Source: Candidatus Saccharimonadota bacterium
Lineage (GTDB): Bacteria > Patescibacteriota > Saccharimonadia > Saccharimonadales > Saccharimonadaceae
Reading direction: 5' to 3'
DNA length: 35,972 nt
Assembly: GCA_017514675.1 (NCBI GenBank)
Contig: JAFWIY010000027.1
Location: forward strand, 1-35,972
How positions within the stretch are numbered: the stretch's first letter is position 1; every line of letters begins with the position of its first letter. A model generated the notes under the pieces. The model made no database searches. It saw only the letters and a program-made list of their open reading frames with translations, and was not told the DNA's origin. Both the position numbers and the translations under genes were made by a program. Positions 2,886 through 4,835 of the stretch are shown here, in pieces.

Positions 2886-2979
2886 AACCTTTCAAACTTT
2901 CGCCGCATAAATAAATCGCGAAGTTAACTTATATTAAATAATGTTGTTTTATTTTTGTATAACTCTTACTCTGCTTATG

Positions 2980-3006
2980 ATTATACCCCCCCCCGTGGTT
3001 TGTCAA
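2980..3006 (-). promoter_or_regulatory. Surface-protein promoter with G9 homopolymer in the spacer
   Basis: On the minus strand a consensus -35 TTGACA (3006-3001) is followed by AACCAC, nine G (2994-2986) and a consensus -10 TATAAT (2985-2980). The spacer is 15 bp, 2 bp shorter than the optimum of 17. Transcription would start near 2973, giving a leader of about 88 nt before the ATG at 2885. Homopolymers at this place change promoter strength by slippage in Neisseria porA; that this one does so is inference. Confidence 0.75.
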
Positions 3007-3028
3007 GACTTTTTTTTCATGGTATAAT
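3000..3028 (+). promoter_or_regulatory. aspS promoter, divergent and sharing its -35 with the surface-protein promoter
   Basis: TTGTCA (3000-3005), a 17-bp spacer and TATAAT (3023-3028). The predicted start of transcription is about 3035, one base before the ATG at 3036, so the mRNA would be leaderless. The -35 hexamer overlaps the minus-strand TTGACA at 3001-3006 by five bases, so RNA polymerase cannot occupy both promoters at once. Confidence 0.75.
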
Positions 3029-3035
3029 ACCCCAT

Positions 3036-4835
3036 ATGAGAACTCTAGCAAACAACCTAAATAATTTTATTGACAAAACCGTAACCGTAGAAGGCTGGGT
3101 CAATTCCCGTCGCGACCACGGTGGGCTGATTTTTATCGACCTCCGCGATTACACCGGCATTATTCAGCTTGTTATTACTCCCGAAAATTCCGAAAACTTT
3201 AAACTTGCTGAGACTCTCCGCGATGAGTTTGTTATTAAAGCCACGGGCAAGGTCTGCAAAAGAGCAAAAGATTTAATCAACCCAAATATCGAAACTGGCG
3301 AAATTGAACTCGTTGTTTCAGAACTCAAGCTATTAAACAAATCTGAACCTCTCCCTGTCAACACTCACGATGATGGCGAAAAATCTTCCGAAGAACTTCG
3401 GCTCAAGTATCGTTACCTGGACCTTCGCCGTCCCTCAATGCAGAAAATCTTAGCTCGCCGCTCAGATTATTATCGCTTTATTCGTAACTATATGTACGAT
3501 CACGACTTCACCGAGGTCACCACCCCAATTCTTGCTAACTCTTCGCCCGAAGGCGCTCGCGACTTTCTCGTTCCCTCCCGCCTTCACCCCGGCAAATTTT
3601 ATGCCTTGCCGCAGGCCCCACAGCAATTTAAGCAACTTCTGATGGTTGGCGGCGTCAATCGTTATTTCCAAATCGCACCATGCTTCCGCGATGAAGATCC
3701 GCGTGCCGACCGGCTCTACGGCGACTTTTACCAGCTAGACCTAGAGATGTCTTTCGTAGATGACGGCGAAATCGTCCGCCAAGAAATCGAACCTCTCTAT
3801 ATCAAACTCGCCACCGAATTTAGTAATAAAAAATTAGTTCTAAAATCCGAACCAGCCAAACAATTTGTTAGTACAAACAGTAAAATTCCACGCATACCAT
3901 ATAGTTTTGCTATGGAAACCTACGGCGTAGATAAACCAGACCTTCGCTATAGCATGGAGCTCATTGAGCTTACCGAAGTATTCAAGAACACAGACTTCAA
4001 GGTCTTTAAAGCTCCTTGCGTTAAAGCAATTTGCGTAAAAGGCGGCGCCAGCCTCACTCGCCGCGAAATCGACGAATTCACCGAAAAAGCCAAAAAGGAA
4101 GGCGCCGGTGGACTTGCTTATATATTATATGCAGAAGGCGAAGCCAAATCCCCAATTCTAAAATTCATGTCCGAAGCCGAAATTAAGAATGTCCAAAAAC
4201 TCACTGGGGCCAAAGATGGTGATGCCGTTTTCTTCGGCGCCGATGAACGCAGCAAAGTCAACAAAGTTCTAGGTCAGCTCCGCATCGCTTTTGCTGATCA
4301 TTTCGGCCTTAAAAATCCAAACGAAGTCGCCTACACCTGGGTTATCGACTTCCCATTCTATGAGTGGGATGACAAGAATAAAAAAGTCGAATTCGGCCAC
4401 AATCCATTTTCCATGCCAAAAGGCGGCCTAGAGGCCCTAGAAAACGCCAAAACCGACAAAGAAAAACTTGCCGTTGTCGCCGATCAATATGATATGGTCA
4501 TGAACGGGCTTGAAGTTTGTTCTGGCGCTGTCAGGAATTATAACCCAGAGATTATGTACAAAGCTTTCAATGCTCTCGGTTTTAACAACGAATATGTTGA
4601 ATCACGTTTCGGCGGTATGCTAAACGCCTTTAAATTTGGCGCCCCGCCCCATGCTGGCTGCGCTCCGGGCCTTGACCGTATCTTTATGGTCTTAGAGGGT
4701 ATCGAAAACATTCGCGACATCGTCGCCTTCCCGAAAAACGGCAACGGCGTTGACCTTATGATGAACTCCCCCTCCACCGTCGACCCCATCCAACTCGAAG
4801 AATCCCACCTCGCAATTGTTGATGACGAAGAATAA
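3036..4835 (+). CDS. aspS: Aspartyl-tRNA synthetase
   Basis: Class II synthetase of 599 aa that charges tRNA-Asp in the cytoplasm. Visible parts in order: N-terminal OB-fold anticodon-binding domain (about 1-100, with VEGWVNSRRDHGGLIFIDLR), the catalytic core with motif 2 around FRDEDPRADR, the bacterial-type GAD insertion in the middle, and motif 3 with GLDR near the C-terminus. The length suits bacterial AspRS. Motif 2 continues as LYGDFYQLDLEMSF instead of the usual QPEFTQIDxEMSF, and motif 3 reads HAGCAPGLDR instead of the usual GGIAFGLDR-like form. The frame is open back to 2955, but that start would lie upstream of the promoter; the ATG at 3036 sits 7 nt after TATAAT and begins the conserved MRTLANN N-terminus. 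The stop codon lies in the left arm of palindrome E1. Confidence 0.95.
   Translation: MRTLANNLNNFIDKTVTVEGWVNSRRDHGGLIFIDLRDYTGIIQLVITPENSENFKLAETLRDEFVIKATGKVCKRAKDLINPNIETGEIELVVSELKLLNKSEPLPVNTHDDGEKSSEELRLKYRYLDLRRPSMQKILARRSDYYRFIRNYMYDHDFTEVTTPILANSSPEGARDFLVPSRLHPGKFYALPQAPQQFKQLLMVGGVNRYFQIAPCFRDEDPRADRLYGDFYQLDLEMSFVDDGEIVRQEIEPLYIKLATEFSNKKLVLKSEPAKQFVSTNSKIPRIPYSFAMETYGVDKPDLRYSMELIELTEVFKNTDFKVFKAPCVKAICVKGGASLTRREIDEFTEKAKKEGAGGLAYILYAEGEAKSPILKFMSEAEIKNVQKLTGAKDGDAVFFGADERSKVNKVLGQLRIAFADHFGLKNPNEVAYTWVIDFPFYEWDDKNKKVEFGHNPFSMPKGGLEALENAKTDKEKLAVVADQYDMVMNGLEVCSGAVRNYNPEIMYKAFNALGFNNEYVESRFGGMLNAFKFGAPPHAGCAPGLDRIFMVLEGIENIRDIVAFPKNGNGVDLMMNSPSTVDPIQLEESHLAIVDDEE

Follow-up and report, generated by a model that had tools for sequence, protein, structure and literature searches.

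A poly-G promoter spacer, probably phase-variable, at a surface-protein gene of a Saccharibacterium

The surface-gene promoter and its divergent neighbour

We analysed a 35,972-nucleotide stretch of Candidatus Saccharimonadota DNA, hereafter the window, which is the entire contig G000:C19; the source organism is a tiny parasitic gut bacterium. At its left end a large gene, cut by the contig end, stands divergent from a gene that reads as an aspartyl-tRNA synthetase (Table 1). The original prediction was a porA-like promoter for a secreted protein of more than 961 residues, with perfect -35 and -10 hexamers and a 15-bp spacer that includes nine G. The promoter lies exactly so on the minus strand, from 3006 to 2980, and the reading frame runs for 961 residues, begins with a signal peptide, and is still open at the contig end. 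Transcription is expected, by inference, to start near 2973, and the ATG lies 94 nt from the -10 hexamer. The discriminator and 5′ untranslated region start with CATAAGCAGAGTAAGAGTTATACAAAAA, nearly common to the paralogous promoter at C10:37423, and the AACCAC that precedes the G tract stands unchanged before the tract in the promoter at G061:C10:76245, which carries G11 and a 17-bp spacer. The window holds a single G9 run (chance mean in shuffles 0.21) and a single TTGACA-N15-TATAAT site at no more than one mismatch (chance mean 0.31). Singly, either could be due to chance; both coincide at one site.

Table 1. Features of the window and G-tract promoters of the source genome
Feature	Location	Strand	G tract	Spacer (bp)	Basis
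Surface-protein gene, 961+ aa, signal peptide, cut by contig end	3..2885	-			
Discriminator and 5′ untranslated region, surface gene	2886..2979	-			
-10 hexamer TATAAT, surface-gene promoter	2980..2985	-			
G tract, 9 of 15 spacer bases, adjoins -10	2986..2994	-	G9		
AACCAC, non-repetitive spacer part	2995..3000	-			
Spacer AACCACGGGGGGGGG (AACCAC+G9)	2986..3000	-	G9	15	sequence
-35 hexamer TTGACA, surface-gene promoter	3001..3006	-			sequence
aspS promoter TTGTCA-17-TATAAT, extended -10 (TGG before -10)	3000..3028	+		17	sequence
aspS-like gene (aspartyl-tRNA synthetase by sequence reading)	3036..4835	+			
Window promoter	C19:2986		G9	15	
Sister promoter	C10:37423		G8 plus T	15	
Sister promoter	C29:19348		G9	16	
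Sister promoter, TTGACG/TATTAT	C29:40496		G10	16	
Sister promoter	C28:18959		G14	20	

P0003, a 1364-residue protein of the same genome with the sortase signal PVPDTG at its end, is a paralogue of the window protein. The C-terminus of the window protein, where an xPxTG signal, a hydrophobic stretch and a basic tail would be expected by analogy, lies beyond the contig end. At the DNA level most of the window gene is about 55-70% identical to P0003 (L024), and over the final ~0.5 kb, up to the contig end (window 3 to about 550), identity rises to 93-97%. The contig breaks here because this near-identical segment is common to both paralogues, and high identity at the truncated end suggests homogenisation, or gene conversion, between surface genes, a reading drawn from the sequence alone. 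No orthologue of the window protein was found outside its own genome in 170 genomes, so the exact window promoter cannot be compared across species. PDB and Pfam searches with the surface product assigned no fold.

On the plus strand, the aspS-like gene has its own promoter, absent from the original prediction, whose -35 overlaps that of the surface gene by 5 bp on the opposite strand. Because the ATG lies only 7 nt past its -10, the aspS-like transcript is probably leaderless; because the -35 boxes overlap, the two promoters are probably, by inference, mutually exclusive. The overlap could mean that slippage mainly tunes aspS through competition between the -35 boxes, with the surface gene secondary, and bidirectional switching by a repeat is known for Haemophilus influenzae hifA/hifB, where a repeat in a divergent promoter region alters the -10/-35 spacing (PMC3899988). 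There the repeat is TA and both genes are fimbrial, whereas here the partner is a housekeeping gene and only -35 bases are common. We give this explanation almost no weight: by inspection, none of the four sister promoters has such an overlap, one of them lies downstream of a co-directional gene, and what G-tract promoters have in common is a surface product. Frame-shifting of the plus-strand frame by the C run was also considered and rejected: a frame of 626 aa is open ahead of aspS, yet resemblance to AspS starts only at 3036, so the C run lies upstream of it and its slippage should not affect AspS.

Recurrence of G-tract promoters and the products behind them

Pattern searches of the 632-kb source genome found nine tracts of at least eight G, five of which are promoter spacers with near-perfect hexamers (Table 1); the reversed pattern gave no match in this genome. 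The other four tracts were set aside, two as terminator-like (C9:1211 and C29:23416), one as lying beside a gene end (C1:7337) and one as lacking a clear promoter (C10:7008); at C16:19847 a G6 site is followed by no matching surface gene. All five promoters have a start region TATAATCATAAGCAGAG or TATAATTATAAGCATAA in common. Their upstream neighbours, by reading, vary (aspS-like, helicase-like, ribosome-recycling-factor-like and others), so what recurs is a type of promoter, rather than copies of a single duplicated block.

The relatives used for comparison form a genus within Candidatus Saccharibacteria; contig C15 of one of them, G028, matches GenBank JAFWHT010000036.1 (RGIG5751) letter for letter. 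The pattern TTGA..G7+..TANNAT has at least one site in 50 of 174 genus genomes and is absent, under that pattern, from the other 124; the reversed pattern gave about 6 matches across the genus scan. A version with a C run was found in 5 of 170 genomes, a strict preference for G on the non-template strand. In nearly all these promoters the tract abuts the -10 within the spacer. Across the phylum 54 of 380 genomes match, many without tight register. Sites in G133 written TTGACG10TATAAT have a spacer too short for the -35 and were excluded from the statistics, and some contigs of relatives are possibly mis-binned (L224 and L225 are unlike the rest). That a random homopolymer merely fell beside a promoter, as the presence of G9 in 16 of 100 window shuffles would allow for the tract alone, is hardly credible against five instances in one genome, the genus-wide count with its near-zero controls, and the strong enrichment for secreted products described below; recurrence and controls refute it.

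Two further features of genus promoters were observed. A 5′-UTR motif, AAAGGTYATA, lies about 10 nt after the -10 at several loci (L025, L072, L074, L086, L090, L231, L252, L254); its AGGTYATA core occurs behind 17 of 50 G-tract promoters vs 3 of 30 non-G promoters, with a background of 0.6% per 110 nt. In another recurrent promoter the spacer that separates TTGACA from TATAATCATAAG is a palindrome, ACGCTATATATAGCGT, for example at G027:C3:273606, G017:C10:27288 and similar loci (L045, L050, L057, L060, L062, L064). Several of these precede a protein of about 150 residues, MKNIIYF..KFDF.RY.KSLNKY, and the arrangement looks like an autoregulated operator.

Products of the G-tract promoters in the source genome all have signal peptides (5/5), called by a simple hydrophobicity rule, and the four complete ones all carry sortase signals, ending in VPDTG, SPDTG, VPDTG and VPNTG, each accompanied by a hydrophobic stretch and by a basic tail. 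One sortase gene was found in this genome, together with about eleven recognisable sortase-type proteins; at least three of the other sortase-type genes lie behind promoter-like sites that lack a G tract and whose spacers measure 16, 17 and 19 bp. Across the genus, signal-peptide-like products lie downstream of 25 of 37 sites; the share is 19% for the remaining genes on that DNA, and 3 of 16 behind matched non-G promoters. GTDB-wide, they follow 69 of 91 sites among the matches listed, with an overall background of 14-19%.

Roughly one in three G-tract promoters of the genus stands before a gene in which no signal peptide is recognisable. At L233, L234, L237, L241, L249 and L251 the products form a second G-tract-controlled class that lacks a signal peptide; they have in common a polar N-terminus with a motif like GW(D/E), for example NNGWDVVSELAD and SSGWDSLSEVPFRG, which may serve effector-like proteins as an export signal. 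We also observed that a leucine-rich-type sortase substrate of the source genome (L300:327-1466) has an ordinary 17-bp promoter-like site, and that a similar protein in G035 (L239) lies behind a G14 promoter; individual genes seem to acquire or lose the poly-G switch one at a time.

There is no transcript map, and other starts are possible in the stretch between -10 and ATG, which leaves room for a hypermutable tract without functional effect, in a promoter that is minor or beside another that drives the gene. We judge this very improbable, given perfect hexamers whose register relative to the G tract is conserved, downstream sequence common to paralogues, and placement specific to surface genes.

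Spacer lengths and tract variation

Sigma-70 promoters work best with a spacer near 17 bp, and ordinary promoters of this lineage cluster at that length (20 of 30 control sites; 31 of 44 under a lax pattern). G-tract promoters of the genus do not, and are spread over 14-22 bp: counts were 5 at 14 bp, 14 at 15, 10 at 16, 8 at 17, 11 at 18, 11 at 19, 6 at 20 and 4 at 21, the full range being 12 to 26 bp, with tracts of 7 to 19 G. Spacers of 17 bp make up 8 of 60 G-tract promoters vs 31 of 44 non-G promoters on comparable DNA (Fisher P about 3e-9; P values for spacers are indicative only, as related sequences are not independent). Among the GTDB-wide matches listed, 5 of 115 G-tract spacers are 17 bp vs 13 of 23 non-G spacers on comparable DNA, and 16, 18 and 19 bp account for 19, 29 and 39 of the G-tract spacers listed; that scan demanded at least nine Gs, and its 17-bp deficit is partly ascertainment. 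In the window, G9 gives 15 bp and G11 would give 17 bp, a range that reaches the lineage's optimum of about 17 bp; promoter strength itself is inferred.

The original prediction implied that tract lengths should vary among related genomes, and they do, from one species to another as well as among near-identical copies of a promoter. One small secreted family, MSK(T/S)TKIIAAL, has orthologous promoters in five genomes; these carry G12, G9, G11, G11 and, in two copies, G10 and G11, with conserved flanks despite the differing tracts. Close pairs were defined by at least 0.90 flank identity and no more than 4 gaps, a 0.76 cut-off on short gapped flanks being too loose. Tract length differs in six of the eight closest pairs, which are relatives and paralogues, not strains of the source species; within single genomes there are pairs of G10/G15, at 94.5% flank identity, and G10/G14. 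The contig ends of G141:C1 and C19 (G17, G16) were considered as one locus and rejected, since their flanks differ; they are paralogues and not allelic evidence.

Could the G tract instead be a selected stretch of stiff DNA or a regulator site, holding the promoter at low, constant strength without switching? The strict non-template preference and the common start region could reflect a binding or structural role, and the recurrent AGGTYATA hints at common regulation. A fixed role predicts constant length, whereas tract and spacer lengths spread widely in the genus, promoters that are otherwise near-identical have tracts 1 to 5 Gs apart, and the pre-G part varies freely; we regard this explanation as unlikely. 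For the source species itself a fixed G9 cannot be excluded, as there is one assembly and no reads or second strain.

No MutS was found in any of 40 relatives, in a search that did detect it in 11 of 14 controls. A published survey agrees, with both MutS and MutL missing from Saccharibacteria (PMC8406219). In the absence of MutS, slippage should go unrepaired, and unrepaired slippage of homopolymers would make switching constant.

A putative surface switch among known systems

With anatomy, gene class and comparative behaviour all fitting, the porA-like slippage architecture first predicted here is supported. We conclude that the window promoter is very likely phase-variable by spacer slippage, of the porA/tp0126 type, and belongs to a surface-switching set; slippage in the population and its effect on expression are inferred. 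DNA polymerase would slip on the G tract between -35 and -10, adding or removing Gs and shifting the spacer between suboptimal lengths (as with the G9 assembled here) and about 17 bp, so that the surface protein, presumably sortase-anchored like its paralogue, would be made weakly or strongly by spacer length. Expression is inferred to rise from low at G9 through intermediate at G10 to highest at G11, and cells of one population are inferred to differ in tract length. With at least five such promoters, all before secreted proteins that carry a wall-anchoring signal wherever they are complete, surface combinations would form a mosaic across a population, and the inferred benefit may be a choice in host-cell attachment or escape from phage or immunity. 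Slips in the copying of G runs thus probably switch the cell coat on and off at random.

The mechanism, spacer slippage, is already known. In Neisseria meningitidis porA a poly-G in the -10/-35 spacer switches the promoter (PMC3899988, PMC7864442), and Treponema pallidum tp0126 has a poly-G spacer with a 17-nt optimum, the same as porA (PMC7864442). As in porA, the tract here lies inside the -35/-10 spacer of a surface-protein promoter, and changes of 1 nt shift the spacer around the optimum; in contrast to porA, the organism and gene are unrelated, five such promoters occur in a 0.6-Mb genome, the complete products carry sortase signals, and MutS is absent. T. pallidum tp0126 and tpr genes likewise have poly-G tracts of variable length in the promoters of several surface proteins (PMC7864442), but the tprL tract adjoins the transcription start, tprE, G and J need no more than 8 Gs, and no sequence kinship is expected. 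Slippage-type variation is also known in another CPR bacterium, Gracilibacterium, in a hypervariable repeat gene (PMC6851277), where it affects one gene's coding repeat and not promoters. The literature searched, which largely excluded subscription papers and preprints, contains no description of simple-repeat promoter switching in Saccharibacteria, nor of its multi-gene use in an episymbiont lineage that lacks mismatch repair.

Perfect-hexamer promoters with poly-G spacers are common, among the GTDB-wide matches listed, in uncultured gut Clostridia and Bacilli (L096-L212), and occur there also in Streptobacillus, Helicobacter and others. For the lineage as a whole we lean, without much assurance, towards a broader reading: that in these ultrasmall Saccharibacteria lacking mismatch repair the poly-G promoter set is a combinatorial, stochastic switchboard for the sortase-anchored surface, possibly bet-hedging attachment, which recurs in gut Clostridia and Bacilli and has most assembled alleles off 17 bp, and so mostly OFF.

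Saccharibacteria are known to have type IV pili for interaction with their hosts, and adhesins acting at close range have been postulated (PMC12206443). For the question of how these bacteria recognise and change host cells, a switchable wall-anchored set would supply named candidates, with a state readable from tract lengths in existing metagenomic reads. The GTDB-wide scan suggests that poly-G spacer promoters are, more generally, an under-recognised switch of the gut microbiome.
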